Below are positions 17,335 through 35,804 of a stretch of 64,000 bases of DNA, in pieces. A program made the translations under genes and the position numbers. Positions within the stretch are counted from its first letter, which is position 1, and every line of letters starts with the position of its first letter. The notes beneath the pieces were generated by a model, which saw only the letters and a list, made by a program, of their open reading frames with translations, made no database searches and was not told where the DNA came from. Origin of the DNA: Bradyrhizobium barranii subsp. barranii (GTDB lineage Bacteria > Pseudomonadota > Alphaproteobacteria > Rhizobiales > Xanthobacteraceae); the NCBI RefSeq assembly GCF_017565645.3, contig NZ_CP086136.1, positions 2,370,001 through 2,434,000 on the forward strand, written 5' to 3'.

Positions 17335-17340
17335 AGTTTA

Positions 17341-17389
17341 CCTCTCCCCGCTTGCGGGGAGAGGTCGGAATTTGCGTAAGCAAATTCCG
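17341..17389. repeat. Double-hairpin intergenic repeat
   Basis: Two adjacent perfect hairpins: an 11-bp stem (17341-17351 with 17354-17364) made of CCTCTCCCCGC and its complement, and a 10-bp stem (17366-17375 with 17380-17389) closed by GTAA, a GNRA-type tetraloop in RNA. It begins 6 nt after the amidohydrolase stop and lies between convergent genes. It is a dispersed extragenic element of alphaproteobacteria and may also protect or end the transcript. Confidence 0.75.
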
Positions 17390-17450
17390 GGTGAGGGGGA
17401 CTCTCCGCGAGTTCGACTGTCACCGTGCGCGCGGAGACAACCCGCCGCGC

Positions 17451-18290
17451 CTAATCCCTGAACAAAATCTGCTCCAGCAGGTCGATCCGCCTGATCTGGA
17501 TGGTGCTGCCGTCGATGGCGATGATGCGGCGGTTCTGGAAACGCTTCAGCATCATCGTCACCCATTGCCGGGTCGAGCCCACCATGGCTGCGATCTGGTC
17601 ATGGGTGATCTTACGGTTGATGACGATGGTGTCGCCGTCGGCCGTGCCATGCAATTCCGACAGCGTGAGCAGGAATTGCGCCAGCCGCTCGATCACCGAG
17701 CGCGTGCCGAGGATCTGTGCCATCGAGGAGTAGCATTTGCCCTTGGCGATGAGGCCGTCGATCAGCGCCAGCGCGAAGCTCGGCATGCCGGTCAACAGCT
17801 TCTCGAGCGCGGGGCCGGAGAGTGCGGCGATCTCGCAGGCCTCGATGGCGATGCCCGACCACATGTGAATGCCACCGCCGGATATCTCGGGGCCTCCGAT
17901 GAAATGTCCCGGCGTCCAATAGGCGAGCGTGATCTCGCGGCCCGACGGCGCGGTGTAATAGACCCGCACCTGTCCGCGGCGGATGATGAAGATGCCGTCG
18001 TGGCCATCGCCTTGGCTGAATACCATTTCGCCCTGCGGCACCGAGATGATGCGGCCGGCCGCGTGCACGCGCGCCTGCTCCGACGCGGACAAGCGGTCGA
18101 GGAAATGCGCGCCGGCATTCAGCCCGTCGATGGTCTCGCTCATGAACAGAGCCGAGCTTGCGGGCCTTGCACGTGTGCTGCGGACCCGCCGCGTCTTCTT
18201 GTGGTCGGTCCAGTCGAACGGAACGCCTGCATGAGGCCGGTCGCCAAAAGCGGCAGGCTCGGTCGCGGCAGCTTCCTTGAGTATGGTCAT
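17451..18290 (-). CDS. Crp/Fnr family transcriptional regulator, 279 aa
   Basis: A cyclic-nucleotide-binding-fold domain (about residues 60-180, with GRIISVPQGEMVFSQGDGHD and FIIRRGQVRVYY) is followed by a Crp-type winged helix with recognition helix ITHDQIAAMVGSTRQWVTMM. There is no N-terminal Cys cluster, so it is not an oxygen-sensing Fe-S FNR; a nucleotide or other ligand is likely. The first 49 residues are an unusual extension; an internal ATG at 18143 (MSETIDG) gives a standard-length protein and is a reasonable alternative start. It is divergent from the NitT/TauT-type importer, which it may control. Confidence 0.85.
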   Translation of the reverse strand: MTILKEAAATEPAAFGDRPHAGVPFDWTDHKKTRRVRSTRARPASSALFMSETIDGLNAGAHFLDRLSASEQARVHAAGRIISVPQGEMVFSQGDGHDGIFIIRRGQVRVYYTAPSGREITLAYWTPGHFIGGPEISGGGIHMWSGIAIEACEIAALSGPALEKLLTGMPSFALALIDGLIAKGKCYSSMAQILGTRSVIERLAQFLLTLSELHGTADGDTIVINRKITHDQIAAMVGSTRQWVTMMLKRFQNRRIIAIDGSTIQIRRIDLLEQILFRD

Positions 18291-18595
18291 CGCAATCCGT
18301 CAGCTCTCCAGGGGCTTGCGAATAGGTAAGTGCGGCGGTGGTGCGATGTCCATCTCTTTGCGATCGTTCCAAATCACATAGCAAAGCTTGATGTGTGCGG
18401 CGACCGGCCGCGAAACGATTCCTCTGTCCATGGCTCCGTCCTGAGAAAATCCTTTGCGTCGTTGCGCGACGGAATCGTGACGCGAACGTCCTGCGACAGC
18501 GATGCAAGTAATTGCTTCAAGCGTTGCGCCGCGCCTTCGATAGTGCCGGCCAGCGTTGTCGCCGGCACGCGCCCGGCCTTCCCGAGGACAGTTCG
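18291..18595. other. Divergent intergenic region with leader hairpin
   Basis: This 305-nt gap separates the Crp-type regulator from the importer operon and should hold both promoters. The clearest structure is an 8-bp perfect stem at 18543-18550 with 18561-18568 (GTGCCGGC and complement, 10-nt loop), 15 nt before the GAGGA ribosome binding site of the binding-protein gene, so it probably lies in that mRNA leader. I see no convincing TGTGA-N6-TCACA Crp site. Confidence 0.45.
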
Positions 18596-20017
18596 ATGAT
18601 CGAATTCGGCTCTTTGAGAATCAGTGTGGCCATTGTGGCCATCACTGTTGCGATGTTCGCGCCGGCCCAGGCGGAGACGATCCGTGTGGCAGTTGGGACG
18701 CAGGACACGACGATCAATTGCGCGACCGGCGGACTGCTCATTCGCGAGCTCAAGCTGCTTGAGAAATTTCTGCCCCATGACGGCAAGTACAAGGATGTCA
18801 CCTACGACATCCAGTGGAAGAATTTTACGAGCGGCGCGCCGCTCACCAACGAGATGGTCGCAGGCAAGCTCGATTTCGGCGCGATGGCTGACTTTCCGGG
18901 CTCGCTGAACGGCGTGGCGTTCCAGAAGGCTGGCCGCCGCAGCCTCTTCATCAGCGTGCTTTCCGGCAGCACCAAGGGCAGTGGCAACGGCATCGTGGTG
19001 CCGTCGAACTCACCGGTGCAATCGCTCGATGAGCTCAAAGGCAAGACCATCTCGGTTCCCTTCGCCTCGACCTCGCACGGCATGCTGCTCCGCGCGATCG
19101 AGGCGAAGGGCTGGAATCCCGAGACCGATGTCAACATCATCACGCAGGCGCCGGAGGTTGCGGGGCCGGCCTTGCAGGCTGGCAAGATCGAGGCGCATGC
19201 CGACTTCGTTCCGTTCGCCGAACTGTTCCCGTGGCGCGGCTTCGCGCGCAAGATCTTTGACGGCGCGCAGGCCAATGCCCCGACATTCCACGGCGGGCTG
19301 GTCGATGCCGATTATGCCGAGAAATATCCCGAGATCGTCGTCGCCTATCTGCGCGCAGCGCTGGAAGCGGATCGCCTGATCGCGGAAGAGCCGGAGAAGT
19401 ACAGCGAGCTGATCGCGAAGGTGACCGGCATCGAGGCGGAGGTCGACTACCTCTTTCACGGACCGCTCGGTCTCCAGACCCGCGATGTGACCTGGAAGCC
19501 GGAGTACCGCCAGGCGGTCGCAACCTCGATCAAGACGCTGAAGCTGCTCAAGCGCGCGGACAGCGATCTCGACATCAACCAGTTCGTCACCGACAAGTTC
19601 ATCCGTATCGCGGCGGCGCAGGCGGGCCGCGATTACGACTCCGAACTGAAGAACTATGCGCAGCTTCCGCTTCGCGCCAAGGACGCCGCAACGGGCGCCG
19701 AGATCAGCGACTTCAGCCGCGTCGCACAGATCTGGGTCAAAGACGAGGCTCATGTACGTCACTATGCCTCGCCCGAGAACGCGCTGAAGGCGCTCGCCGG
19801 CCTCGAGAAGGACGGCAAGACCATCCGCGTCGTCTATGCGCAGGATCGTGAAAGCGGCATCAAGCTGTTCGCAAACCAGGCCTGGTTCGTGCGGTCGTCC
19901 AAGGGCGAGCTGAGCGCGTTCCTGCTCAAGCAGGCGGCCGAGGGCTGGTCGAAGACAAACGGGGGCGCGGTGCTCGACTTCGCGGCCGCGCGCGAGTCCC
20001 TCGTCGCGAGCCGGTGA
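18596..20017 (+). CDS. NitT/TauT-type ABC transporter substrate-binding protein, 473 aa
   Basis: Periplasmic receptor. The signal peptide ends near MFAPAQAE; the mature part has the family's GKLDFGAMADFPGSLNGVAF and GIVVPSNSPVQSLDELKGKT (start of the second lobe), followed by a TISVPFASTSHG ligand loop. ATG at 18596 is chosen because GAGGA lies 7 nt before it and it starts the signal peptide. At 473 residues it is much longer than SsuA or TauA, with an added C-terminal region of about 130 residues. Such long forms occur among nitrate/sulfonate-type receptors of rhizobia. The ligand is unknown. The permease gene starts 4 nt after the stop. Confidence 0.85.
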   Translation: MIEFGSLRISVAIVAITVAMFAPAQAETIRVAVGTQDTTINCATGGLLIRELKLLEKFLPHDGKYKDVTYDIQWKNFTSGAPLTNEMVAGKLDFGAMADFPGSLNGVAFQKAGRRSLFISVLSGSTKGSGNGIVVPSNSPVQSLDELKGKTISVPFASTSHGMLLRAIEAKGWNPETDVNIITQAPEVAGPALQAGKIEAHADFVPFAELFPWRGFARKIFDGAQANAPTFHGGLVDADYAEKYPEIVVAYLRAALEADRLIAEEPEKYSELIAKVTGIEAEVDYLFHGPLGLQTRDVTWKPEYRQAVATSIKTLKLLKRADSDLDINQFVTDKFIRIAAAQAGRDYDSELKNYAQLPLRAKDAATGAEISDFSRVAQIWVKDEAHVRHYASPENALKALAGLEKDGKTIRVVYAQDRESGIKLFANQAWFVRSSKGELSAFLLKQAAEGWSKTNGGAVLDFAAARESLVASR

Positions 20018-20021
20018 GGCG

Positions 20022-20822
20022 ATGGCCACCGCTATCAAGGCGCGGCCTGCGGGCATCCGCTGGATGGTCCGCGGCCTTTCGATCATGGCCTGCATTGCCC
20101 TGTGGCAGGTCGCTTCGACAACGCATCTCAATCTGGGGATCGTGACCTTCCGCAACGTGCCGCCGCCGGTCGAGGTCGTTCAATCTGCGCTCGCCCTGTT
20201 TCGTTCGCCGAAATTGACGGCACATATCACCAGTAGCCTCTGGCGCGTGTTCGCGGGCTACGGTGCGGCGGTGGTGATCGGCGTGATCCTTGGTTTTGCC
20301 ATCGGCCGGTCACGCGCCGCGAGCGACCTTTTGCTGCCGCCCCTGGAATTGCTGCGCCCGATACCGGCGGTGGCGTGGATACCGCTGTCGATCCTGATCT
20401 TTCCGTCGTCCGAACTCTCGATGATCTACATCACCTTCATCGGTGCCTTGTTTCCGATCGTGCTGAACACCGTCCACGGTGCCGCCAATGTCGACCGCCG
20501 GCTGGTTGCTTCCGCCCGCAGCCTCGGCGCGGGGGAGTTGGCGATCCTGAGGGAAGTCGTGCTGCCGGATGCCGCGCCCAGCATCGTCACGGGGCTTGCG
20601 ATCGGCATGGGCACCTCATGGTTCTGCCTCGTCACCGCGGAGATGATCTCGGGCCAGTTCGGTATCGGCTATTACACTTGGGAAGCCTACACGCTCCAGA
20701 ACTACGCCGACATCATCGTCGGCATGCTGATCATCGGCCTGCTCGGCATGGGTTCGAGCTGGCTGCTGACGACGGCCGGGCGGCTTCTGATGCCCTGGCG
20801 TAGCCCGAGGGTGGCGCGATGA
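20022..20822 (+). CDS. NitT/TauT-type ABC transporter permease (SsuC-like), 266 aa
   Basis: Inner-membrane permease with about six hydrophobic segments. The EAA loop reads ASARSLGAGELAILREVVLPDAAP and is followed by GLAIGMGTSWFCLVTAEM, as in SsuC/TauC. It lies 4 nt after the binding-protein gene, and its last 4 nt overlap the ATPase start (ATGA). It forms the channel of the importer at 18.6-21.7 kb. Since the paired ATPase gene is interrupted by a stop codon, the transporter as sequenced may be non-functional. Confidence 0.88.
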   Translation: MATAIKARPAGIRWMVRGLSIMACIALWQVASTTHLNLGIVTFRNVPPPVEVVQSALALFRSPKLTAHITSSLWRVFAGYGAAVVIGVILGFAIGRSRAASDLLLPPLELLRPIPAVAWIPLSILIFPSSELSMIYITFIGALFPIVLNTVHGAANVDRRLVASARSLGAGELAILREVVLPDAAPSIVTGLAIGMGTSWFCLVTAEMISGQFGIGYYTWEAYTLQNYADIIVGMLIIGLLGMGSSWLLTTAGRLLMPWRSPRVAR

Positions 20823-21658
20823 ACATCCGGGTCGCGGATATCGGCACGAAGAGCGTCGGTCGGATCGACTTCGCCGATGTCTCGATTTCACTCGGATCGG
20901 GCGGCGATGCATTCGAAGCGGTCAGCGGTCTCGATGTCGCGATTGCGCCGGGCGAGCTCGTCTGCGTCCTCGGTCCCTCCGGCTGTGGCAAATCCACGCT
21001 GCTCGGCGCGCTGGCCGGGCATTTGCCGATCACGGCTGGCCGTCTCACGGTCGACGGCCAGCAGGTCCAGAGCCCGAGCCCGGACCGGGGTATGGTGTTT
21101 CAGCAGCACACGCTGTTTCCCTGGAAGCGGGTGCGTGACAATGTCGCCTTCGGCCCGAAGATGCGGGGTCTCGGGAGGAGGGAGCGCGACCGTGCCGCCG
21201 ACGCGATCCTGAAGCTGGTCGGCCTCTCCGGCTTCGAGGCGTTCTATTCGGCGCAATTGTCGGGCGGTATGCAGCAGCGCGTGGAAATTGCGAGGGTCCT
21301 GATCAACTAGCCGCGGGTGCTGCTGATGGACGAGCCCTTCAGCGCGCTCGACGCGCAGACGCGCGGCATGATGCAGGAGGTCCTGCTCGACATCTGGAGC
21401 AAGATCCCGACCACAACCGTCTTCGTCACCCACGACATCGACGAGGCATTGTTCCTCGCGGATCGTATCGTCGTGATGAGCGCAAGACCCGGCCGGGTGA
21501 TCGAGGATGTCGTGCTGCCTTTCGCGCGGCCACGCAGCCACGATCTCGTGACCGAACCCGAGTTCGTACGCCTGAAGCGGCATGTCATGCAGCTTTTGCG
21601 ACGGCCGGAAGGTTCTGAGCCGTTGGCACGGCTCAGTCCGCTCGGCGTGACGTCCTAG
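20819..21658 (+). pseudogene. NitT/TauT-type ABC transporter ATPase (SsuB-like) interrupted by an amber codon
   Basis: The whole 279-residue ATPase can be read in one frame if the TAG at 21308-21310 is ignored. Before it come Walker A GPSGCGKST (residues 52-60), the Q-loop and the signature LSGGMQQRVEIARVLIN. After it, without any frame change, come PRVLLMDEPFSALDAQTR (Walker B and D-loop) and FVTHDIDEALFLADR (switch His). The stop therefore removes Walker B and should abolish ATP hydrolysis. A CAG-to-TAG transition would explain it (LIN-Q-PRVLLMDEP). It may be a true nonsense mutation, a sequencing error, or a read-through codon; the first is the simplest. The last bases overlap the convergent LLM gene. 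Confidence 0.85.
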
Positions 21659-22635
21659 AACATCCCGCTCGCCGCGAGCGCCTTGCGGACGTGCTGCATC
21701 TCGGCCTCGTCGGCGACCATGTCGAGCATGATCGTGGTCAGGCCCTTCGCCGCAAAATCCTTCAGCTTTGCACCGACCTCGGTGTAGCTGCCGACGAGAT
21801 AGGGGCAGTCGGCCTGGAAGGTGAGGTACGGCAGCAGCCAGTAGCCATTGTCGGCGAGCTCGCCGCTCTGGCCGTCATAGAGCCGCCGCTTCCACACGGA
21901 ATCGCTGTTCTCCACGGTGAGCGCGAGCAGCTCGCGATCATCGGGATTGTCGCGGAAGCGTGCCTTCGCGGCTTGCCGTGCCTCGTCGCGTCCCTCGCGG
22001 GCGAAGATGCCAAAGTTCATTCCGGGTGCATCGAGGCCGCGATCGAGATCGGGCGGCAGCATCTGCATCTTGATGCAGCCGGTCTCCTTCGCCACGCGCT
22101 GCGCCGCCTCCGACTGGCCCGCGACCAGGAATTCCGGCATCAGCTCCGCCGGCAGGCGCGGGCGAAGTTGCAGATTGCTTGCGCGGTAGAACCGGCCCTC
22201 GACATTCACCGGGCGGGGGCTTTCCAGCAATTGGCGCATCAGCGCGACGAATTCGCCGAGCCGGACGTAGCGGTCCGCATGCGACTGCTCGTCGCCCAGC
22301 CCCTGCAGGTCGCTGACCGCGGTCCCCGTGATCATGTTGAGATAGACCTTGCGGCCGTGGAGCTGCGCAAAGGACGAGACGAACTTTGCCGCGGCGAACG
22401 GGTGCATGTAGACCGGATTGACCGCGATCAGCGGCGAGCTTCGCGTGGTCTCACCCATGATGTGCTGGGCCATCGCCCAGGGCTCGACGAACACGTCGTT
22501 GCCTTCGAACAGCAGGATGCCTTCGAAGCCGTTGCGGTCGGCGAACTGTGCCACCCGCATCAGCTCGCCGACATATTTCTTGGGATCGCGGTTGCGCGAG
22601 ATCGCGGGAAAGACGCGCAGCCGCGGGGGCGTCAT
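21655..22635 (-). CDS. LLM-class flavin-dependent monooxygenase, 326 aa
   Basis: Bacterial luciferase-like TIM barrel of the SsuD/alkanesulfonate monooxygenase group that uses reduced FMN. Typical segments are RVAQFADRNGFEGILLFEGN, VNPVYMHPFAAAKFVSSFA, KVYLNMITGTAVSDLQGLGD (flavin phosphate side) and DRYVRLGEFVALMRQLLESP. The ATG at 22635 overlaps the stop of the phosphopantetheinyl transferase gene (ATGA), so the two are co-translated. This ties the enzyme to the NRPS locus and suggests that it oxidises the peptide product or a building block, rather than acting in sulfonate use. It also runs into the SsuABC-like importer gene tail to tail, so a link with sulfonates cannot be excluded. Confidence 0.85.
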   Translation of the reverse strand: MTPPRLRVFPAISRNRDPKKYVGELMRVAQFADRNGFEGILLFEGNDVFVEPWAMAQHIMGETTRSSPLIAVNPVYMHPFAAAKFVSSFAQLHGRKVYLNMITGTAVSDLQGLGDEQSHADRYVRLGEFVALMRQLLESPRPVNVEGRFYRASNLQLRPRLPAELMPEFLVAGQSEAAQRVAKETGCIKMQMLPPDLDRGLDAPGMNFGIFAREGRDEARQAAKARFRDNPDDRELLALTVENSDSVWKRRLYDGQSGELADNGYWLLPYLTFQADCPYLVGSYTEVGAKLKDFAAKGLTTIMLDMVADEAEMQHVRKALAASGMF

Positions 22636-23363
22636 TCAGCCGCTTCCTGGAACGGCCAGGAATTGCGGGTGATGGGAAGGCCGCCGTGCGCGCGGGAGCC
22701 GTCGGCGATCGCGAGGCGATGCGAGGGCGACGGCGAGCACAGCGAGAAGCGCCATGCATGCGGATCATCGGCGATATCGGGCTTGAAGCTGATCTCGATG
22801 GCCTCGCGGGACACCTGCATCGCGAAAGCGTCGAGCGGCAGATTGAGCCCAAAGCCCCTTGCCTTCAGATAGGCCTCCTTGAGCGTCCAATAGTCGAAAA
22901 AGCGCTCGATCGCGGCGGGCTCCGGCAGTCCGCGCAACGTTTCGACCTCCTCCGGCGCAAAGAAGCGAAGCGCGGTGGACAGTGGCGCGACACGCCGCGA
23001 CACGGTTTCGACGTCGACGCCGACGGTCTCGTGGCCGGACACGACGCAGGCAACGCAGCCATCGGCATGGGACAGGCTGAAATGCAGCGCGGTCGAGGTC
23101 GCGGGCGCCGCAACAAACGGCCGCCCGTAGCGACCGGCCCCGAAGGACCAATCGGTGGGTGCGACGTTCGGTGCGGCCTGCGACAGCGCCAGGCGCAGCA
23201 TCGCGTGCGCGAAGATATATTGCCGCCGATGCCGCTCGAACATGAAGCGGTCGGCGCGGATCCGTTCGTCGACCGAAAGCAGGCGTCGGCACGCATCGAC
23301 TGCGCCCGGAGCGTCAATGGTCTCGATCAGTCCGACAAACAGTTCAATTCTGTCGTCTGCCAT
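22632..23363 (-). CDS. 4'-phosphopantetheinyl transferase, Sfp type, 243 aa
   Basis: Transfers the phosphopantetheine arm of CoA to carrier-protein serines. The Sfp-type motifs are LHFSLSHADGCVACVVS, GVDVETV (magnesium-binding Asp/Glu) and FFDYWTLKEAYLKARGFGL (the WxxKEAxxK helix). At 243 residues it is of the pseudodimeric Sfp type, not the short AcpS type. It lies in the same direction as the two-carrier NRPS gene and would activate its T domains. Start ATG at 23363; a TTG directly before it was not used. Stop and start overlap with the LLM gene. Confidence 0.9.
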   Translation of the reverse strand: MADDRIELFVGLIETIDAPGAVDACRRLLSVDERIRADRFMFERHRRQYIFAHAMLRLALSQAAPNVAPTDWSFGAGRYGRPFVAAPATSTALHFSLSHADGCVACVVSGHETVGVDVETVSRRVAPLSTALRFFAPEEVETLRGLPEPAAIERFFDYWTLKEAYLKARGFGLNLPLDAFAMQVSREAIEISFKPDIADDPHAWRFSLCSPSPSHRLAIADGSRAHGGLPITRNSWPFQEAAE

Positions 23364-23412
23364 CAATAAGGCCCATGGCGTCAGGCGGAGGCCAAGTCTC
23401 CGGCCCTGACGG

Positions 23413-23442
23413 AAGAATCAACTGAGCAAGAATCAACTGAGC
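23413..23442. repeat. Exact 15-bp tandem duplication
   Basis: AAGAATCAACTGAGC occurs twice head to tail just upstream of the phosphopantetheinyl transferase gene. It lies in the untranslated stretch between that gene and the 55-aa gene. It may be replication slippage; the copy number is a possible strain marker. Confidence 0.75.
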
Positions 23443-23596
23443 GGACCGCTTCTAACGGTCCACCCGGGCAATTTCTTGTCGATTTGCAGGCCGGTTTACA
23501 GGCGCAAGCTTGTGCGAGACCCCAACTCGATGAGCGAGCGGCCCATATCCGGAAAGGGAAGCCTGAGGATTCGTGCGGCGTCCCGGCCGACGATCC

Positions 23597-23764
23597 TTAC
23601 TTCTTCTTCTTGGCTTTCTTCGCTCCGCCCAGCATCGAAAGGCTGGCGTCGACATCCTTGAGCGCGGACTGGAGCTTCTTCTTCTCGGCGCCCAGCAGCT
23701 TTTGCAGGGCCTTGCGGTCCTTGTCGCTCAACGAGGTACCTTTGGTAAATTTGATGAAACCCAT
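23597..23764 (-). CDS. Lys-rich 55-aa protein in the NRPS locus
   Basis: The product begins MGFIKFTKGTSLSDKDRKAL, continues as one Lys/Leu/Ala-rich helix (QKLLGAEKKKLQSALKDVDA) and ends GGAKKAKKKK. There is no signal peptide or membrane segment. The ATG at 23764 is chosen because GGGGGAG lies 6 nt before it; codons further upstream in the frame look non-coding. It lies between the NRPS and phosphopantetheinyl transferase genes on the same strand. It is not an MbtH protein: it is shorter and lacks the MbtH Trp and Asn-Glu motifs. A nucleic-acid-binding or protein-binding helix is possible. I do not recognise a family. Confidence 0.65.
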   Translation of the reverse strand: MGFIKFTKGTSLSDKDRKALQKLLGAEKKKLQSALKDVDASLSMLGGAKKAKKKK

Positions 23765-23906
23765 AACATACTCCCCCGGTTGAAAATAATCGTCCAAATC
23801 AAATCGAGGGAATAATCTTGCGCGCTGGCGCCAAATAATCAAGATGCAACTTGGTCATGCACAGCTTTGGCGAGTGAACTTGTGTTCTCCCGTCCCGTAC
23901 AGCCGG

Positions 23907-26900
23907 TCATGCCGCCCTGCGAGCGAGTAATCGGCCGAGCGGCGTGTTGGGGTGGGCGACGGCCGCATCCAGCAGCGCGACGAGATGCGCCATCCACTCA
24001 CCGACCCTGCGGCCATCGAGCAGCTCGCCCTTGTAATTGCATGAGCCGGTGATTCCGGTGGGGCGTTCCTTGAGCATCAGCGACAGCCAGGTCTGGTCGA
24101 TCGGCAGCACCGGCTGGCCTTCGCGCGCGACGTTGCCGATCGATTCGATCGTGACGTCAGCCAGATCGAGCGGCTGGCGCAGCGGATTTTGCAGGGTGAA
24201 ATAGACCTGGAGCAGCGAGGCCGGATCTATCCCCTCCTGCTCCAGATGGTCGGCCAGAATGTTGAACGGCAGCTCCTGGCGCGCATGCGCGTCGAGCACG
24301 CTCTGGCGCACCCGGGCCAGGGCTTGCGCGAACGACAGCTCCGGCGTGATTCGGGTACGGACGATCACCGTGTTCTCGAACGGACCGACGACCCGGTCGG
24401 TATCCGGCTGGGCGCGATTGGCCATGGCGGTGGCGACCGAAATGTCGTTGCGGCCGCTCTGCGCCAGCAGCAGGGCTTTCAGGCCGGTGAGAAGGCACAT
24501 GAACAGCGTGCTGTTATGCCGGCCGGCGAACGCCGTGAGCCGGCCGATCAGCTCGCGCTCGAGGCTGACGGGGTGATGCCCGGCGGACGCGCCGGGGCTT
24601 GCGTCACCGTCGAAGACGGGGGTCGCGCCGCGCAGATTCTCCGTCCAGTCGGCGGCCTGGCGGCGTGCGGCGTCGGTGCCGCACCACCAGCGCTGCCAGC
24701 GGGCGACGTCCGAAAAGGCGAGCGGCAATTTCGGCAGCGGCACGGACGGACGTCCGGTCAGCGCCGTATAGCGGTTGGACAGCTCCTCGAACAGCACGCC
24801 GATCGACCAGCCGTCGGCAATGGCATGGTGCAGCGTCAGCAGCAGCACATGATCGTCGGCATGGAGCCGCAACAGCCGCGCCCGCAACAACGGCGGCCGC
24901 GCGGTGTCGAACGGGGCGTAGGTCTCCTGCTCGATCAGGAGATCGATCTTCCTGAGTTCGAGGGCTTTGCGCCGCTTGTTGTCGTGGGGACGTCCGTCGC
25001 CGATGACCTCGATCGTGAGGGCCGGTCCGAGCTCGCCGGGTGTGGCGATGCGACTGACGGGCTCTTCGCCGCTCCGGCCGAATCCGGTCCGCAGCGATTC
25101 GTGGCGGCGCACGATGTCGCCGAACGCCTGCGCGAGGGTAGTCGGATCGAGCGGGCCCTGGAGGCGGAAGGCAAAGGGCAGGTTGAACAACGGCAGGCCC
25201 GGCAGGTTCTGCTCGATCCGCATCATCTGGTCCTGTGCGATCGAGAGCGTTGGGATCCCGCCTTCAGCAGGCCGCAGCATGCCTGTTGCCGCCTTGCGCG
25301 GCTTTGCTGCCACTGCCTCGTCAACCCGCCGGGCGAGTTCTTCGATCGTCGGAGCCTCGAAGATGGTCTTGATCGGCAGCGACACGCCGAGCGCACGGGC
25401 GACGCGCGCCATCGCCTGGCCCGCCAGCAGCGAATGGCCGCCGAGATCGAAGAAATTATCGGTCACGCCGAGGCTCTCGACCTTCAGCAGGTCGACCCAG
25501 ATGTCCGAGAGCACCTTTTCGGTGAAGTGCCGCGCCGGCACGGCGGCGTCCGGTCCGGAGACGTCCTGCTGCGCGGGCGCCAGCAGCGCCGACCGGTCGA
25601 TCTTGCCATGGGCATTGAGCGGCATCTGGTCCAGGAACAGGAATGCGGACGGGATGGCATGGCCCGGCAACCGGCTCTTCAGGAAGTCGCGCAGCTCGCT
25701 GGCGCTGCTCTGGCTGCCGGCCCTTGCGACGATATGGGCGATCAGCCTGACATCGCCGCTCGCCTCGCGGCGCGGCTCGACGATGCCGGCGCGCACCGCA
25801 GGATGGTCGGCAAGCGCGTTCTCGATCTCCTTGAGCTCGATACGGTAGCCCCGGACCTTGACCTGATGGTCGGCGCGGCCGAGGCATTCGATGGTGCCGT
25901 CGGCGCGACGGCGTGCGAGGTCGCCGGTCCGGTACAGCCGCGCGCCTTCCTGGCGCGAGAACGGATTGGGGAGGAAGCGCTGCCGGCTCTGCGCGGGATC
26001 GTTGATGTAGCCGCGGCCGACACCGGCGCCGCCGATGCAGAGCTCGCCGGTCACGCCGACCGGCAGCGGCTGGAGGTTTTGATCGAGCACATGGAGCTGG
26101 GTGTTGGGCAGCGGCGCGCCGACCGGGACGTTGCTCGTCGCCGCCGCCGGCGCTTTGGTCAGGCGATGCAGCGAGACGTCGTCGGAACATTCCGACGCGC
26201 CATAGGCGTTGATCAGCGGCACCTTCGGGCAGCGGGCGAACCAGGCGCGGCAGAGATCGACCGGCAGCGGCTCGCCGGTCGAGATCAGGAGCCGCAATCC
26301 CTCAAAGGCGCGCTGGACCTGTGCGTCGTCCATGCGGTCGAGGATCACCCGCAGCAGCGACGGGACGATCTCGAGCACGCTGATGCCTTCGCGCTCGATC
26401 TCCCGCGCGAGCAGGATCGGGTCCTGCACGATTGCGTTGGCGCAGACATGGACGCGCGCGCCGACCATGGGACCGGCAAGGAACTGCCAGACCGAGATGA
26501 CAAAGCTCTGCGGCGCAGTCTGGGCGATCACGTCGCTGGCCGTAATGCCGAGCTCGGAAATGAGCGACGCCAGATGGTTCGACAGCCCGCGCTGCTCGAT
26601 CATGACGCCCTTTGGCGCGCCGGAGGAGCCGGATGTGTAGATGAGATAGGCGAGGCTCACGGCTGCGCGCCGCGCGGCGCGGGCAGGCCTGGTCGATCCG
26701 GGTGCGATCGCGTCCTCGAGCTCGGCGACATGAATGCGCTCGACCAGCGGTTCGAGCAGCGCCTCGACCATGGCCGACTGGGCGCGCCCTGTCAGCAGCA
26801 TGCGGGCGCAGCTCGATCCGAGGATGGTCGCAAGCCGCGCCGGCGGCTGGTCGGGATCGAGATTGAGGAAGGCTGCGCCCACGCGCTGCGCGGCGATCAT

Positions 26901-29900
26901 CGCGGCGAGGAGGTCGGGCCCGCGATCCGCAAGCAAGGCGACAACGCTCTCGGCGCCGACACCTTCGCGCGCGAGCCAGCGCGCCGCTGCCTGGCTGCGG
27001 CGGGCGAGCTCGCGATAAGTCAGGGAGGTGCGGCCGTCGGAGACGGCGATCGCGTTCGGTGTCTTCTTCGCCTGGCGCTCGAGGCGTTCGCAAAGATTGC
27101 CGCGCGCGGTGAAATTGGCCACCACGCCCTGGCCTTTCGCCAGCAACTGCCGGCGTTCGGCCTCCGTCAGGAGCGGCAGGCGCGAGATGCGCTGCTCCGG
27201 ATTGGCGATCACGGCCTTGAGCAGGGTCTTGAACTGAGCGGCCATGCCTTCGATGGTCGCCGCGTCGAACAGATCGGTGGCGTATTCGAAGAAGCCCGTG
27301 AAGCGGCCGTCGGCCTCGACCAGTTCGAGCGTGATGTCGAAGCGCGCGACTTTCGGGTCGACCTCCAGCCGCCGCGTCGACAGGCCGGGGAAACGCGCCG
27401 CCTCGATCGAGGCGTTCTGGAGAATGAACATGATCCGGAACAGCGGGTTGCCGTCGCTCCGGCGCGCGATCTGCAGCGCGCGCAGCACTTCCTCGATCGG
27501 GAGGTCCTGGTTGCGGTAGGCATCCAGCGTGACCTGCCGCACCCGCCGCAACATCTCGCCAAAGCCGGGATCGCCGCCGAAATCGTTGCGCAGGATCAGG
27601 GTGTTGGCGAACAGCCCGATCAATCGCTCGCTCTCGATCTGGTTGCGGTTGGCGATCAGCGATCCCGTCGCGACATCCTCGTGTCCGGTGTGGCGGAACA
27701 ACAGGCACTGGAAAGCCGCGAGCAGCGTCATGAAAGGCGTGACGCCCTGGTCCTGGCTGAGCGCGCGCAGATCGGCCGACAGTGCCTTGGAGAATTCGAG
27801 ATAGTGACGGGCGCCGTGACCGCTCCAGACCTCCGGGCGTGGCCGGTCGGTCCGCAGCGGCAGTGTGGTGACACCGTCGAGCTGGGTCCGCCAGTAATCG
27901 AGCTGCTCCTTCGCCGCCGGCGCCTGAGCCCAGCTCTGCTGCCATAGCGCAAAGTCACGATACTGGAAGGCGGGCGAGGGCAACGTCACCGCGCTTGCCT
28001 TGCGTGCAGCGGAATAATGGGCGGCAAGCTCCTCCCAGAACAGCCGTTGCGACCAGCCGTCGGTGACGAGATGATGGACGTTGACCACCAGCGCGTGGCT
28101 GGATTTGTCGAACGACAGCAGGGTAACCTTGAGCGGCGGCTCGTGCGCCAGGTCGAAGGGATATTGCGCGAGCTCGAGCGCCTCGCGCCGGATGATTGCG
28201 CCCTGCTTGTCCGCCGCGCAGGGCTTGAGCTTGATCCGCTCGAACCGCGGAGGTGATTGCAGCACCCGCTGCGCCGGCTCGCCCTCGCGTTCGATGAAGA
28301 CCGAGCGCAGCGCCTCGTGGCGCGCGCAGATCGAGGCGAGGCTCGCAGAAAGCGCGGCGACGTCGACCAGGCCCTTGAGAACGGCGACCTCGACGACGTT
28401 GTAATTGTAGCGGGTCGGATCGAGCCGCGAGAGCACATACATCCGCTGCTGCTGGAACGACAGCGGCGCGTCGGCTGCCGCCGCCTGGCGCCATGCGGGC
28501 ACCATCGTCTCGCGATGGGTTGTGGCGGTCTCGATCCGGGCCGCAAGCGCTGAGACCGTGGCGCAATCGAAGATGTCCTCGAAGGAGAAGTCGACATTGA
28601 AGCGTTCGCGCAAGCGCGAGCGCATCTGCGTCGCCGCGAGCGAGTCCGCGCCGAGCGCAAAGACATCCTGGTCGATGCCGACCTGCGGCAGCTCCAACAG
28701 ACCGGCCCAGATCCCCGCGAGCTGGGTCTCCAGCGCGTTGCGCGGCAATTGCGCTTCGACGCCATGCTCCGCGGTTGCGATCAGATCGGCCAGCGCGTTG
28801 CGCTTGACCTTCCCGCTCGCGCCTTTCGGCAGTGCGGCCACGCCGCGGATCAGGCTCGGCACCTTGTAGGCCGCAAGACGTTTGCGCGCGAACTGCCGAA
28901 GCTGGTCCGGAGTTGCTTCGGAATTCGGGCGCAGCACCACGACGGCGGCGACGTTTTCGCCGAGCTTCTGGTGCGGGACGGCGAACACGCCGGCCTCCAG
29001 CACCGCCGGATGGCTCAGCAGGACCTCTTCGACCTCCAGGGGCGAGATCTTCTGCCCGCCGCGGTTGATGACGTCCTTGATGCGGCCGACGATGAAGAGA
29101 TAGCCGTCGGCGTCGAGATAACCGAGGTCGCCGGTCCGGAACCAGCCGTTGCGGAAGGCGGCCCGTGTCGCCGCCTCGTCATTATAATAGCCGCGGCTCA
29201 TGTTCGGCCCGCGCAGCATGATCTCACCATGCTCGCCGCTCGCAAGCGTGCGGCCCGCCCCGTCCATGATCGCGATCTCGGGGCCCGCAGCGCGGCCGAC
29301 CGATCCGACCTTGCGCAGCTCGAATGGATTGGCGGAGATCTGCGAGGCCGCTTCCGTCATGCCGTAGGTCTCGAGCACGGGAACGCCGAACATCGCCTCC
29401 AGCCCGTTCAGGATCGCAGGCGCGAGCGAGGATGAGGCCGAGCGGATCACGCGCAGCGACGACGAGCGGGCGCGGTCCGGGTCGGCCTCGGCCGCCGTCA
29501 GCAGCGCGCGATGGATGGTCGGCACCGCCGTGTACCAGGTCGGTCGCAGCTCCTGCATCCAGCCGAAGAAGGACAATGCGTCGAAACCGTTGGTGCAGAT
29601 CACGCTGGAGCCCGCGGCCAGCGCCGTCAGCAGGCCGGAGATCAGACCATGGGCGTGAAACAGCGGCAGAGCGTTGAGCAGGCGGTCGTGGGCTGCGAGC
29701 GACAGCACGCGGCCGGCATTGTATGCGGACAGGCACACATTGCGCTGCGTCAGCGGCACCATTTTCGGCCGCGCCGCCGTGCCTGACGTCAACAGGATGA
29801 AGGCGTCATCGTCGCCGCGCGAGGCGCCGCTCGTGCTGGCCGGCCCGACTGCCGGGCCGATGAACGCGCAGCCGCCGAGATTGTCGTTCGGCCCCGGCAC

Positions 29901-30350
29901 GTAATCGATCACCGCGATATCGAGCGCCTTGGCAACGTCACGACTTGGTGAATTCATCTCGGCCCGGGTGACGAGCGCGGTCAGCTTCAATTCGCTGAAA
30001 TAGCGTTGCAACTCGTCGGCCGTCAGATCGGGATTGACCGGGACACAGGCGCCGGCCGAGGCGACCGCGATCAGCGCCAGCGCGCTGTCGGCGCCGCGCG
30101 GCAGCGCAACGGCGATCCGGTCGGCAGGGGCAATGCCGAGCCCCCGCAGGGTGCGGACCAGTTGCTGGATCAACTCACCCAGCTTGCCGTAGGTGAGGGC
30201 CGGCCGGCCCGGCGCGAAGAGAGCCGGTGCCGACGGCGTCTTGCGCGCATAAAAGTCGAGAAGGCCGCCGATATCGGCAAAGGTCCTGGTTTCGGCGCCT
30301 GCGCTGTCCGAATCCTCTCCCGCTACGGATGCAATGTGGGACAATGCCAT
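23907..30350 (-). CDS. Two-module non-ribosomal peptide synthetase, A-T-C-A-T-C, 2147 aa
   Basis: Domains in order: an adenylation domain of the acyl-CoA-ligase type (about residues 25-530, with LLTSGTAARPK, YGMTEAA, WFRTGDL and PKGASGKVKRNA); a carrier domain with Ser570 in LGADSLAA; a condensation domain (about 628-1065, HHLVTDG at 759-765); a second adenylation domain (about 1085-1590, TSGSSGAPKG, YRTGDLA, HGKIDRSAL); a carrier domain with Ser1640 in LGGHSLLAG; and a terminal condensation domain (about 1698-2147, HHAIADG at 1841-1847). No thioesterase, reductase, epimerase or methylation domain is present. In the second A domain the usual FDxSVW core reads FVISVW, so the Asp that binds an alpha-amino group is replaced. 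Start ATG 30350 is used; an in-frame TTG lies at 30383. Confidence 0.93.
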   Translation of the reverse strand: MALSHIASVAGEDSDSAGAETRTFADIGGLLDFYARKTPSAPALFAPGRPALTYGKLGELIQQLVRTLRGLGIAPADRIAVALPRGADSALALIAVASAGACVPVNPDLTADELQRYFSELKLTALVTRAEMNSPSRDVAKALDIAVIDYVPGPNDNLGGCAFIGPAVGPASTSGASRGDDDAFILLTSGTAARPKMVPLTQRNVCLSAYNAGRVLSLAAHDRLLNALPLFHAHGLISGLLTALAAGSSVICTNGFDALSFFGWMQELRPTWYTAVPTIHRALLTAAEADPDRARSSSLRVIRSASSSLAPAILNGLEAMFGVPVLETYGMTEAASQISANPFELRKVGSVGRAAGPEIAIMDGAGRTLASGEHGEIMLRGPNMSRGYYNDEAATRAAFRNGWFRTGDLGYLDADGYLFIVGRIKDVINRGGQKISPLEVEEVLLSHPAVLEAGVFAVPHQKLGENVAAVVVLRPNSEATPDQLRQFARKRLAAYKVPSLIRGVAALPKGASGKVKRNALADLIATAEHGVEAQLPRNALETQLAGIWAGLLELPQVGIDQDVFALGADSLAATQMRSRLRERFNVDFSFEDIFDCATVSALAARIETATTHRETMVPAWRQAAAADAPLSFQQQRMYVLSRLDPTRYNYNVVEVAVLKGLVDVAALSASLASICARHEALRSVFIEREGEPAQRVLQSPPRFERIKLKPCAADKQGAIIRREALELAQYPFDLAHEPPLKVTLLSFDKSSHALVVNVHHLVTDGWSQRLFWEELAAHYSAARKASAVTLPSPAFQYRDFALWQQSWAQAPAAKEQLDYWRTQLDGVTTLPLRTDRPRPEVWSGHGARHYLEFSKALSADLRALSQDQGVTPFMTLLAAFQCLLFRHTGHEDVATGSLIANRNQIESERLIGLFANTLILRNDFGGDPGFGEMLRRVRQVTLDAYRNQDLPIEEVLRALQIARRSDGNPLFRIMFILQNASIEAARFPGLSTRRLEVDPKVARFDITLELVEADGRFTGFFEYATDLFDAATIEGMAAQFKTLLKAVIANPEQRISRLPLLTEAERRQLLAKGQGVVANFTARGNLCERLERQAKKTPNAIAVSDGRTSLTYRELARRSQAAARWLAREGVGAESVVALLADRGPDLLAAMIAAQRVGAAFLNLDPDQPPARLATILGSSCARMLLTGRAQSAMVEALLEPLVERIHVAELEDAIAPGSTRPARAARRAAVSLAYLIYTSGSSGAPKGVMIEQRGLSNHLASLISELGITASDVIAQTAPQSFVISVWQFLAGPMVGARVHVCANAIVQDPILLAREIEREGISVLEIVPSLLRVILDRMDDAQVQRAFEGLRLLISTGEPLPVDLCRAWFARCPKVPLINAYGASECSDDVSLHRLTKAPAAATSNVPVGAPLPNTQLHVLDQNLQPLPVGVTGELCIGGAGVGRGYINDPAQSRQRFLPNPFSRQEGARLYRTGDLARRRADGTIECLGRADHQVKVRGYRIELKEIENALADHPAVRAGIVEPRREASGDVRLIAHIVARAGSQSSASELRDFLKSRLPGHAIPSAFLFLDQMPLNAHGKIDRSALLAPAQQDVSGPDAAVPARHFTEKVLSDIWVDLLKVESLGVTDNFFDLGGHSLLAGQAMARVARALGVSLPIKTIFEAPTIEELARRVDEAVAAKPRKAATGMLRPAEGGIPTLSIAQDQMMRIEQNLPGLPLFNLPFAFRLQGPLDPTTLAQAFGDIVRRHESLRTGFGRSGEEPVSRIATPGELGPALTIEVIGDGRPHDNKRRKALELRKIDLLIEQETYAPFDTARPPLLRARLLRLHADDHVLLLTLHHAIADGWSIGVLFEELSNRYTALTGRPSVPLPKLPLAFSDVARWQRWWCGTDAARRQAADWTENLRGATPVFDGDASPGASAGHHPVSLERELIGRLTAFAGRHNSTLFMCLLTGLKALLLAQSGRNDISVATAMANRAQPDTDRVVGPFENTVIVRTRITPELSFAQALARVRQSVLDAHARQELPFNILADHLEQEGIDPASLLQVYFTLQNPLRQPLDLADVTIESIGNVAREGQPVLPIDQTWLSLMLKERPTGITGSCNYKGELLDGRRVGEWMAHLVALLDAAVAHPNTPLGRLLARRAA

Positions 30351-30419
30351 TCCCTTTTGATCTGATTGAGCTATTCTTCCCAAGACTTAGGGAACGCGTC
30401 CAGTCTGAGGTGAAGTTCG

Positions 30420-30446
30420 GGCCCCAAAATCTGTGATTGAGGGGCC
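30420..30446. other. Short inverted repeat in divergent NRPS/cyclase promoter region
   Basis: GGCCCC at 30420-30425 and GGGGCC at 30441-30446 flank a 15-nt AT-rich centre. The site lies in the 135-nt gap between the divergent NRPS and cyclase genes, 40 nt before the latter. It could be a protein-binding site or leader hairpin; evidence is weak. Confidence 0.3.
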
Positions 30447-30485
30447 TAAAGCCCTTCGACGGAGTGAAGGTCGGGCAGAATCACC

Positions 30486-33400
30486 ATGCTGGAGAATGAA
30501 CCTGTTACGGGGACGGAAGGCGGGTTGAAGCGCTGGCTCGAAGGCGTCGGTCTTGGACATTACACCGATCTCTTCGCGCAGCACCGCCTCGATCTCGATG
30601 TGATGGGGGACCTGACGGAATCCGACCTGGTCGAGCTCGGATTGCCGCTCGGCGATCGCAAGCGGCTTCAGCGCGCGATGTCGGCGCTATTCCAGGCTGA
30701 GACCGCAGAGAAGCCCGATGCGGCGGCGCGCCCGCAAGTCCGGGCGGAAGTCGGTGCCGAACGGCGTCAGCTCACCACCATGTTCTGCGACATGGTGGAT
30801 TCCACCTCGCTGTCGGTGCAGTTCGATCCGGAAGACGTGCGCGACATGATCGCGAGCTTTCGCGAGACCTGCGTCCGGGTGGTGAAACATTACGAGGGGT
30901 TTGCCGCGCGCTTCGTCGGCGACGGTATTCTTGTCTATTTCGGCTATCCGACCGCGCATGAGGACGATGCCGAGCGATCGGTGCGCGCCGGGCTCGAGAT
31001 CGTGCGGGTGCTGTCGACTGCGCGCGCGATCGAGCCGCGCGGTGCGCTGAGCCACGCCCCCGCCGTCCGCATCGGGATCGCAACCGGTCTCGTCGTGGTC
31101 GGCGACCTCGTTGGCCAAGGCACCGAGGAGCGCGATTCCGCGGTCGGAGAAACCGTCAATCTCGCCGCGCGCCTGCAAGGTCTGGCGCCACCCAACGGCG
31201 TCGTGATCTCGTCCTCGACACAGTCGCTGCTGAAGGGCAAGTTCGACTACCGCAATCTCGGCGTCCATGCGCTGAAAGGCATCTCGGAGAAGACGCAGGC
31301 CTGGCACGTGGTGCGCGCCTCGCGGGCGGAGACCCGCTTCGCCGCTGCCATGGGCGGGCGGTTGACGCCGCTCGTCAACCGCGAGGAGGAGATCGCGCTG
31401 CTGATGGGGCGCTGGCAGCAGGTCAAGGACGGCGACGGCCAGGTCGTGGTCAAGTTCGGCGAGCCCGGCATCGGCAAGTCGCGCATCATCCAGGAGATCT
31501 TCGACCGGATCGCGGGCGACCGCCATGGACACGTCTCGTTCCAGTGCTCGCCCTATTACACCTCCACGGCGTTCTATCCGTTCTCCGAGCAGCTCAAATT
31601 CTCGCTCGGCCTCGACCGCGAGGATCCATCCGCGACGTCGCTGGCGGGTCTGGAGACCGCGATCGCGGCCGCCCATGGCGACATCGAACAGGTCACGCCG
31701 CTGTTTGCCGCGCTGCTGTCGATCCCGACCGGAGACCGCTATCCGCCGCTCGACCTGTCGCCGCAGCAGCAGAAGGACGCGACCGTCGCGGCGCTGGTCA
31801 ATCATTTCCTCGGCCTTGCGCGCGACATGCCGCTGGTGATCGCGCTTGAGGATCTGCACTGGATCGACCCGACCTCCCGCGAGGTGATCGACCTCCTCGT
31901 CGCCCGGGTGCAGAACCAGCCGGTCCTTGTCATCATCACCGCGCGCTCCGAATTCCAGCCGAGCTGGAACGCGCATTCGCACATCACCACGCTGGTGCTG
32001 AACCGCCTGAGCCGGCAGCTGCGCACGACGCTGGTCGAGCGCGTCGCGGGCCGCGAGCTTCCCAAGGAGGTGGTCGAGGAGATCATCGTCAAGACCGACG
32101 GCGTGCCGCTGTTCCTGGAAGAGCTGACCAAGACCGTTCTCGAATCCAACCTCCTGACCGAGCGGCACGGGCGCTACGTGCTGTCGGGCCCATGGCGGCA
32201 GCTCGCGATCCCGGCGACCCTCACCGACTCGCTGATGGCGCGGCTGGACCGGATGGGGCCGTTCAAGCGCATCGCGCAGATCGGCGCCACCATCGGTCGC
32301 GAGTTCTCCTACGCGACGCTGCACGCGGTCGCCAACACGCCGGCGGAGCAGATCGAGGCCGCGCTCAATCATCTGGAGGAGGCCGGGTTGATCATGCGCC
32401 GCGGCCGTCCGCCCGGCGCGCTCTACTCCTTCAAGCACGTGATGATCCAGAACGCCGCGCACGACAGCCTGCTGCACAGTGAGCGGCGCAAGCTGCATTC
32501 GCGGATCGCGCAGGTGCTCGCCGAGATGTATCCGGAGAAGACCGAGCGCGAACCGGAGCTGCTCGCCCATCACCTCACCGAATCCGGCCAGAGCGAGGGC
32601 GCCGCCAGCTTCTGGCTCAAGGCCGGCAAGCAGGCGGCCAAGAGCGGCGCCAATCTGGAGGCGATCGGGCATTTGCGCCGGGGCTTGAGCGTCGTGCAGG
32701 CCAATGCGCGCATGCAGGGCGCCGACGAGATGGAGCTGGAGCTGCGCATCGCGCTCGGCAACGCATTGATTGCCGCCAAAGGCTACGCCGTGCAGGAGGT
32801 CGAGGAGAACTACATCCGCGCGCTCGAGCTCGGTCAGCAGCTCGACGACGACGAGAAGGCCTTCGCCGCCACGCGCGGGCTCTGGGTCTGCCATTTCATC
32901 CGTGCCGATCTCAGCCGCGCGCACGATCTGAGCGTCGAGCTGTTGAAGTTCGCCAAGCGCGAACGGCTGAACGAGCGCACGCAGCCGGCGCAGCAGACCG
33001 GCTATCTGATCGAGGCGCACCGCTCGATCGCGATGACGATGCTCTATCGCGGCCGTTTTGCCGCCTCCCAGCACCATCTGCACCGCTGCATCAACCTCTA
33101 CAGTCCCGATCTGCACTCCGATCTGATGGAGCGGCACGGTACCGATCCCGGCGTCGTTTCGCTGTCCTATCTCGGCTATCTCCTATGGTTCCTCGGCCGG
33201 CCCGACGCGGCGCGCCAGCACAGCGAGCAGGCGATCGCGAATGCCGAGAAGATCCGCCATCCCTTCACGCTCGCCTTCGCGCTCGTGTTCGGCGCCTATC
33301 TGTGCCAGCATTTGCGCGACGTCGAGGGTACGCGCGACCACGCCAACCGCGCCATGATCATCGCCACCGAGCACAATTTCCTGCACTGGAAGCAGCAGGC

Positions 33401-33956
33401 GGCGATCCTGCGCGGCTGGGCGCTGGCCCAGCTCGGCGAGGCCGACGAAGGTCTCAGCCAGATGCGCCTCGGCCTCGACGAATACGAGGCGATGGATTCC
33501 TGGCTCGCCGGCTGCTGGTTCCGCTGCCTGCTTGCGGAAGCCTATGCCAAGGTCGGGATGCGCGATGCCGCCTTGCGCGCGCTGGACGGCGCGCTCGCGA
33601 CCGCGAGACGGACCGGCGATCACTCCTATCTCGCCGAGGTCTATCGCCTGCAGGGCGAGATCACAATGTCGGACGGTGATCCGGCATCGGTGCAGGAGGC
33701 CGAGGACCTGTTCGCCCTGTCGCTAGAGACCGCGCGCAAGCAGGGCGCGCTATCATGGGAGCTTCGGACCGCCGTCAGCCTTGCGCGCCTGTCGCACCAA
33801 GCCGGCAAGCGCGAGCACGCAAGTCTTCTGCTTTTGCCGATCGTCGGCAAGTTCAGCGAGGGCTTTTATACTCCGGACCTGAAGCAGGCGATGCAGCTCC
33901 TCAGCGAGCTCGGCGGAGACGTGCCCGTCCTTGAACAGGCCGATGCGATGAAATGA
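30486..33956 (+). CDS. SAM-domain adenylate/guanylate cyclase with AAA ATPase and TPR region, 1156 aa
   Basis: Multidomain signalling protein. An N-terminal sterile-alpha-motif domain (about residues 13-70, LKRWLEGVGLGHYTDLF) precedes a class III nucleotide cyclase domain (about 95-275). Its metal-binding Asp residues are Asp102 in MFCDMVDST and Asp146 in RFVGDGILVYFG. A P-loop ATPase domain follows, with GEPGIGKS at 325-332 and Walker B LVIALEDLHWIDP. The remaining C-terminal part of about 500 residues is Ala/Leu-rich helical sequence of TPR type. This is the rhizobial type with cyclase plus STAND-like ATPase; it is cytosolic with no membrane segment. The stop overlaps the next gene's ATG. 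It is divergent from the NRPS gene, so shared control is possible. Confidence 0.9.
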   Translation: MLENEPVTGTEGGLKRWLEGVGLGHYTDLFAQHRLDLDVMGDLTESDLVELGLPLGDRKRLQRAMSALFQAETAEKPDAAARPQVRAEVGAERRQLTTMFCDMVDSTSLSVQFDPEDVRDMIASFRETCVRVVKHYEGFAARFVGDGILVYFGYPTAHEDDAERSVRAGLEIVRVLSTARAIEPRGALSHAPAVRIGIATGLVVVGDLVGQGTEERDSAVGETVNLAARLQGLAPPNGVVISSSTQSLLKGKFDYRNLGVHALKGISEKTQAWHVVRASRAETRFAAAMGGRLTPLVNREEEIALLMGRWQQVKDGDGQVVVKFGEPGIGKSRIIQEIFDRIAGDRHGHVSFQCSPYYTSTAFYPFSEQLKFSLGLDREDPSATSLAGLETAIAAAHGDIEQVTPLFAALLSIPTGDRYPPLDLSPQQQKDATVAALVNHFLGLARDMPLVIALEDLHWIDPTSREVIDLLVARVQNQPVLVIITARSEFQPSWNAHSHITTLVLNRLSRQLRTTLVERVAGRELPKEVVEEIIVKTDGVPLFLEELTKTVLESNLLTERHGRYVLSGPWRQLAIPATLTDSLMARLDRMGPFKRIAQIGATIGREFSYATLHAVANTPAEQIEAALNHLEEAGLIMRRGRPPGALYSFKHVMIQNAAHDSLLHSERRKLHSRIAQVLAEMYPEKTEREPELLAHHLTESGQSEGAASFWLKAGKQAAKSGANLEAIGHLRRGLSVVQANARMQGADEMELELRIALGNALIAAKGYAVQEVEENYIRALELGQQLDDDEKAFAATRGLWVCHFIRADLSRAHDLSVELLKFAKRERLNERTQPAQQTGYLIEAHRSIAMTMLYRGRFAASQHHLHRCINLYSPDLHSDLMERHGTDPGVVSLSYLGYLLWFLGRPDAARQHSEQAIANAEKIRHPFTLAFALVFGAYLCQHLRDVEGTRDHANRAMIIATEHNFLHWKQQAAILRGWALAQLGEADEGLSQMRLGLDEYEAMDSWLAGCWFRCLLAEAYAKVGMRDAALRALDGALATARRTGDHSYLAEVYRLQGEITMSDGDPASVQEAEDLFALSLETARKQGALSWELRTAVSLARLSHQAGKREHASLLLLPIVGKFSEGFYTPDLKQAMQLLSELGGDVPVLEQADAMK

Positions 33957-34747: not shown

Positions 34748-34821
34748 TGCTTGGTTTCGTTTTACCTTGATTCCGTTTGTGAGTTTCCAGCATCTCGCGG
34801 TGCGGCTATGAGTGCGGCCCG

Positions 34822-35795: not shown

Positions 35796-35804
35796 GGCCG
35801 CGTC

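Follow-up and report, generated by a model that had tools for sequence, protein, structure and literature searches.

A 64,000-nucleotide stretch of the genome of Bradyrhizobium barranii subsp. barranii (contig NZ_CP086136.1, positions 2,370,001 to 2,434,000; hereafter the window) carries a member of a genuine, conserved family of non-ribosomal peptide synthetases (NRPSs) that is undescribed as far as we searched, and whose most interesting part is K55, a 55-residue lysine-rich protein encoded beside the synthetase. On balance, we favour the explanation that this Bradyrhizobium pathway makes a small N-acylated amide and that K55 is its dedicated protein partner. The first adenylation domain (A1) would load a small carboxylic acid (oxalate being unlikely) onto the first carrier domain (T1), and the first condensation domain (C1) would join this acid to an amino unit selected by the second adenylation domain (A2), probably not an alpha-amino acid. 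The terminal condensation domain (C2), which follows the second carrier domain (T2), would then release the chain by amidation with a soluble amine. A phosphopantetheinyl transferase (PPTase) would arm the T domains, and a luciferase-like flavin monooxygenase (LLM), where present, may oxidise a carrier-bound intermediate or the product. The likely product is an amide of an acyl unit and a non-alpha amino acid, LLM-oxidised in many strains. K55 would be dedicated to this family of synthetases, which it would most likely serve as a helical adaptor or docking element; it is a separate protein in most loci and a fused part of the synthetase in one architecture.

Conservation of the locus in Bradyrhizobium

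The original prediction, of four genes on one strand forming a self-contained biosynthetic set, was borne out by the open reading frames (ORFs), by Pfam and by the conservation of the set in the genus. The order of transcription is NRPS, K55, PPTase, LLM, which is also the gene order in the fetched loci, and the PPTase and LLM reading frames share the ATGA overlap that had been pointed out. An LLM of at least 68% identity is encoded in 62 of 146 Bradyrhizobium genomes, followed by a gap down to 39%. Among 64 loci chosen by LLM match, all labelled Bradyrhizobium except 'Frankia sp. RB7', a synthetase frame of more than 2000 residues is present in 60 (including L075, which is cut by a contig end), and K55 was found by tblastn or ORF pattern in 63. 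The synthetase frame of the remaining four is disrupted (L051, L077), cut by a contig end (L085) or gone, with only an LLM fragment left (L102). The last of these (L102:6340-10141), where the cyclase gene stands next to a 47-residue LLM remnant, is a footprint of locus loss.

K55 evolves with a dN/dS of about 0.14 (NG86; 54 coding sequences, 299 pairs, first 45 codons) and is thus under purifying selection. Together with the frequencies of the synthetase frame and of K55 among the 64 loci, this shows that the locus is not a chance arrangement. Counting LLM orthologues and synthetase loci without an LLM, 62 + 11 of the 146 sampled species carry the locus, and the window's copy has a high GC content at third codon positions (GC3), as do the adjoining genes; the pathway should therefore have a lasting role. 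The NRPS, K55, PPTase and LLM are 98–100% identical to the copies of B. barranii subsp. apii (L039). The host genome comprises 11.4 Mb and encodes other large NRPSs.

K55 is a more constant companion of the synthetase than the LLM

No K55 match was obtained with Pfam or NCBIfam at the default threshold, and for four copies searched against Pfam at E values up to 5, all matches remained below the cut-off. From its sequence, we infer that K55 forms one long amphipathic helix followed by a basic tail; most copies have a Lys/Arg-rich tail. In the 60 full-frame loci, K55 starts 89–178 bases past the synthetase stop, and it is present at the 3' end of every checked intact synthetase of the family that ends in a terminal C domain. 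A profile of 60 copies from loci with the window's A-T-C-A-T-C architecture (type I), searched against 6175 ORFs of 19 other loci, matched ORFs at the synthetase 3' end in L133, L134, L143 and L145-L147. It also picked up a K55 paralogue (L168) and decayed copies (L169-L171), and gave one other match at E 0.63. The decayed copies (L169:7802-7960, L170:7652-7892, L171:7076-7234) suggest repeated loss of the type I locus. The paralogue is a second K55 in the window's own genome (L168:7723-7914), located between a SAM-cyclase-AAA-TPR gene and the gene of a 537-residue flavoprotein, and no NRPS match was found nearby.

With a 12-sequence profile at E 0.01, 88 of the 146 Bradyrhizobium genomes were matched, including some decayed copies and about ten matches that we judged to be noise (ten matches, E 0.005–0.01, in ORFs of 376–453 residues, all on profile positions 8–44). 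Among 337 class-level genomes, the only strong match was in the window's own genome, and matches in seven non-Bradyrhizobium genomes (E 0.0004–0.008) were likewise judged noise; within the genomes searched, K55 is thus confined to Bradyrhizobium. We further compared 24 K55 loci, of which 20 were picked from the profile list outside the LLM-chosen loci (chosen, not random), the others being L133, L134, L143 and L168. K55 lies beside a C2-ended NRPS in 19 of them. A shorter A-T-C synthetase is encoded in six (L134, L217, L221, L224, L229, L230), and a type III form with a flavoprotein in L133, which lacks an LLM, and L143, which has both LLM and PPTase. Eleven more (L211-L216, L218-L220, L222, L223) encode the A-T-C-A-T-C synthetase and K55 with no LLM match in the locus, one of them (L223) lacking a PPTase match as well. 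K55 is therefore a more constant companion of the synthetase than the LLM, and not just one item of four, as had been supposed when its presence was noted.

The partnership also takes a fused form. In type II loci (L141, L142, L144), the synthetase lacks C2 and no separate K55 lies beside it; a K55-like segment is found instead at the synthetase C-terminus. The order is A-T-C-A-T, then LLM, then a C-A-T-TE protein (by Pfam on L141 only; TE, thioesterase), and the A domain of this second protein has a code that we take to be glycine-like. The type II cluster (L141:3575-14066) appears to be a longer-product relative of the window's pathway. Among 320 gene C-termini, the type II synthetase C-termini were the top three (16.8–19.4 bits; next 6.7), and with profile k3, in which the type II tails are not included, no shuffled sequence attained the score of its tail among those reported (993, 957 and 955 of 1000 for the three tails).

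Domain organization and predicted substrates of the synthetase

Pfam identified AMP-binding, PP-binding and Condensation stretches in the NRPS, two of each, in the A-T-C-A-T-C order first proposed, and neither a TE nor a reductase (R) domain. The catalytic motifs of the A, T and C domains are intact, as in a modular NRPS, with the HHxxxDG motif in each C domain and the serine in each T domain invariant across all 61 aligned synthetases (the window and 60 loci). The C domain stands last, as in amide-releasing synthetases of the rhabdopeptide/xenortide type, in which a terminal C domain is documented to pass the chain to a free amine (PMC6195595). An acyl unit and an unusual amino-type unit with amide release, as originally suggested, is still the best reading of these domains.

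Over the whole domain, the closest relatives of A1 with a solved structure are plant oxalyl-CoA synthetases (5ie0). These enzymes have a His in the motif MTEAAHQM, which we take to function in oxalate binding. It is present in 20 of 20 standalone relatives and replaced by Ser in all 61 embedded type I domains; other subtypes also have Ser, or Thr in the A-T-C form of L134. With this conserved His missing, A1 is doubtful as an oxalate loader and its substrate is probably not oxalate, yet we keep oxalate as a candidate.

In A2, Val235, Trp239, Thr301, Ala322, Asp330, Asp331 and Lys517 are invariant (61/61), Ile236 and Ile299 are each kept in 60 sequences, and position 278 is occupied by Glu 59 times and by Gln twice; outside type I, the code is VIW[E/Q]ITADDK in eight of eight A2 domains. 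Asp235 is reported to be highly conserved across alpha-amino-acid-selective adenylation domains (PMC11355689). Since A2 has Val at this position in all 61 synthetases, it probably selects an amino acid other than the alpha type. A beta-alanine-like unit would be our guess. We take VDWVISLADK to be a code for beta-alanine, and a text search of the open-licence literature found no paper with either this code or VIWEITADDK. For beta-alanine chemistry, we considered the bolagladins and kasichelins (PMC7756342, PMC12305651).

The LLM is an accessory enzyme

The LLM belongs to its superfamily (PF00296, Bac_luciferase; 90.5 bits, cut-off 27.9), and its predicted model (mean predicted local distance difference test (pLDDT) score 69.9) appears closest to MsuD and SsuD, the top Foldseek matches. 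An assignment as alkanesulfonate monooxygenase was rejected: the LLM scores 79 bits against an NCBIfam cut-off of 510, and in the alignment it does not keep Cys54, Arg226, His228 and Arg297 of SsuD, which we presume to be catalytic. The original prediction counted the LLM among the four genes of the set and stressed its linkage to the PPTase. This emphasis did not hold, as the eleven genomes that keep the synthetase and K55 have no LLM orthologue: their best match anywhere in the genome is remote (E 1e-12 to 1e-15), with none of at least 68% identity. We therefore regard the LLM as accessory. The proposed linkage of PPTase and LLM stands insofar as both occur in 63 of the 64 loci, but these loci were picked by LLM, and the eleven genomes do without it; the exceptions within the set are L102, without a PPTase, and L097, where the PPTase match is a short stretch of 44% identity.

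Outside the genus, the LLM is rare at the thresholds used. At class level (385 genomes, E 1e-40) it was found in G812 beside two Bradyrhizobium, at phylum level (398 genomes, E 1e-35) in G812 and G1062 beside six Bradyrhizobium, and in seven plasmid records (E 1e-30) at 31–37% identity. LLM relatives of 30–39% identity stand beside adenylation or NRPS genes in all 12 contexts opened, namely six of seven Bradyrhizobium loci with 37–39% identity, G812, G1062 and four of the seven plasmid records (Tritonibacter, Rhizobium, Gemmobacter, Streptomyces). This consistent neighbourhood of distant relatives supports a role of the LLM on carrier-bound substrates.

Some of these contexts are of interest in their own right. 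In L138:8519-11367, the neighbours of the LLM relative are a free-standing amino-acid adenylation enzyme and a carbamoyltransferase, and such an LLM-A pair occurs in six of the seven Bradyrhizobium genomes whose LLM is 37–39% identical. In G1062 (L159:9318-10767), an aspartate decarboxylase gene overlaps that of the LLM relative, and an NRPS and an RND (resistance-nodulation-division) exporter are encoded next to them; G1062 is the only one of 58 genomes of its genus with an LLM. A Tritonibacter mobilis plasmid (L251:1619-16865) combines free-standing adenylation enzymes, a carrier protein, a cytochrome P450, an LLM, an acyl-CoA dehydrogenase and a PPTase.

Alternative explanations

Several ways in which K55 may serve the synthetase have to be weighed. 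The most far-reaching reading, which we consider somewhat less likely than not, is that K55 is a new NRPS component, Lys-rich, helical and genus-specific, acting in trans with synthetases that end in a C domain and in cis, as a fused segment, with TE-released ones, and serving either as acceptor of the chain or as an assembly-line adaptor unlike known docking domains. A less favoured possibility is that K55 is an activator or chaperone, MbtH-like in role and not in fold, acting on the shared A1-T1 unit. This unit is common to the K55-linked NRPSs, the A-T-C form included, and K55 starts shortly behind the synthetase stop, but in type II the K55-like segment follows T2 in the fusion, at a long sequence distance from A1, and K55 loci without an NRPS exist. 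The latter also speak against K55 as an acceptor proper, with C2 moving the acyl chain to K55 lysines to yield a peptide-protein conjugate. The adjoining positions of C2 and K55, the Lys/Arg-rich tail of most copies and the lack of a TE or R domain in the NRPS would all suit such a transfer, which we nonetheless consider improbable: in type II, a K55-like tail is present in the absence of C2 and the second synthetase carries a TE domain, and the tail of K55 is not strictly conserved, ending in acidic residues in L143. K55 could also belong mainly to a cyclase-signalling unit and merely ride next to the NRPS, as class III cyclases flank most K55 loci: they occur close to K55 in loci of type I, type III and the A-T-C form, and likewise in four of the NRPS-less loci, the exception among these five being L228, whose stretch begins at the end of a contig. 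However, the window's genome contains 36 cyclase matches, the type I and III cyclases are about as close to 20 unlinked paralogues as to each other, and the type I cyclase has no match in the three type II loci, so that we regard this as quite unlikely; the cyclase is at most a candidate member of the system.

For the pathway as a whole, an unrecognised siderophore or malleobactin-type system might be suspected, since antiSMASH surveys give this label to many Bradyrhizobium NRPSs; homologues of MbaAB were reported in 85 of 278 Bradyrhizobium genomes (PMC12815270), and some of them may be this synthetase. We consider this very improbable. The NRPS has no epimerase or TE domain, A2 lacks Asp235, and no ornithine N-hydroxylase or other siderophore hydroxylase and no receptor was found among the nine neighbouring ORFs scanned (16309–35931). 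The original prediction that the locus does not look siderophore-like agrees with this, as does its claim that an exporter, a TonB receptor and a hydroxylase are absent, which holds for the same nine ORFs; an ABC (ATP-binding cassette) importer-type operon does lie downstream.

Returning to the amide pathway with K55 as its partner, a number of observations weigh against it. Five of the 24 K55 loci (L168, L225-L228) have no NRPS match in the fetched stretch and K55 beside a flavoprotein, so K55 is not strictly NRPS-bound and may have a further function elsewhere, and in L230 a weakly scoring K55 (5e-7) lies at the synthetase 3' end on the opposite strand. The first-round profile k1, built from type I only, gave marginal support for the fusion (2, 1 and 0 of 1000 shuffles scored at least as high as the type II tails), and the tails had E values of 0.02–0.2 in the ORF search with the K55 profile. 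As to the substrates, the aspartate decarboxylase of G1062 hints at beta-alanine, but Asp occupies position 235 in the three A domains seen of its NRPS, whose gene is truncated at the end of a contig, and the AlphaFold2 model of A2 was too poor to use (pLDDT 46).

Bradyrhizobium includes the main soybean symbionts, and to our knowledge little is known of its own natural products. Surveys of the genus count many NRPS clusters (PMC10708946, PMC12815270). Among the papers listed from the open-licence literature, we found no characterised cluster with the same domain order and, by title or abstract start, none describing this locus. For NRPS biochemists, the family provides a small partner protein that is open to experiment and exists both free and fused, together with A1 and A2, two adenylation domains whose substrates await assignment.

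Gene organization and neighbouring genes

The PPTase (244 residues) is of the Sfp type in domain (ACPS, 60 bits, cut-off 25) and length (about 230–250 residues in this type), and contains WxxKEA and GVDVE, which we take to be the named PPTase motifs. As the whole genome has only one other ACPS-superfamily match, it may serve the other NRPSs too. The divergent SAM-cyclase-AAA-TPR gene is present in 62 of the 64 loci, the exceptions (L075, L085) both lying at contig ends. A role in defence was also considered. Two cyclases tested with PADLOC match Pycsar cyclase models via the generic cyclase domain, and the type III flavoprotein gave one weak match (28.7 bits, type I specificity subunit); K55, the LLM and the PPTase match nothing in PADLOC. 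The ABC importer-type operon (18512–21658) follows directly downstream of the LLM gene, and its ATPase gene (20819–21658) has an in-frame stop in the window and is intact in 13 of 13 related loci checked.

Table 1. Genes and synthetase domains of the locus, with positions in the window.
Feature	Positions	Strand	Remarks
NRPS A-T-C-A-T-C	23907..30350	-	2147 aa from ATG at 30350; frame to 30383 opens with TTG
K55, 55-aa Lys-rich protein	23597..23764	-	ORF listing, profile and tblastn matches
Sfp/HetI-type PPTase	22632..23363	-	ATG at 23363, frame to 23366; Pfam ACPS
LLM flavin monooxygenase	21655..22635	-	Pfam Bac_luciferase; predicted SsuD/MsuD-like fold, SsuD residues not kept; accessory
A1 acyl-activating domain	28782..30272	-	nearest solved relative oxalate-CoA ligase (5ie0); Ser for His
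T1 carrier domain	28533..28724	-	GADSL
C1 condensation domain	27141..28472	-	HHLVTDG
A2 amino-acid adenylation domain	25575..27083	-	ten-residue code VIWEITADDK; Asp235 replaced by Val
T2 carrier domain	25284..25508	-	GGHSLL
C2 terminal condensation domain	23910..25238	-	HHAIADG; no TE or R domain after it
SAM - class III cyclase - AAA_16 - TPR protein, divergent neighbour	30486..33956	+	conserved beside type I locus; candidate member of the system

Comparison with known systems

Among the NCBIfam models, the PPTase scores best with HetI, at 120 bits against a cut-off of 370. SsuD and MsuD are closest to the LLM in sequence and predicted fold, yet only about 20% identical, and the LLM differs from SsuD at the four residues named above. 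The oxalyl-CoA synthetases (AtAAE3, 5ie0; FadD7 group) are the nearest solved relatives of A1, which differs from them in being fused to T and C domains and in the substitution of Ser for His. For release, the rhabdopeptide/xenortide synthetases (Kj12ABC) are the model for C2, with a terminal C domain acting on a free amine, and they also have docking elements at their subunit ends. Unlike in Kj12ABC, the C domain here is in cis, the starter domain resembles an acyl-CoA ligase, and in most cases a gene of its own encodes the small partner. Docking domains have been reviewed (PMC9113145); K55 would be comparable to the Kj12ABC docking elements in its position. Given the place of its fused counterpart at the C-terminus of the first type II synthetase, K55 is a candidate NRPS docking domain.

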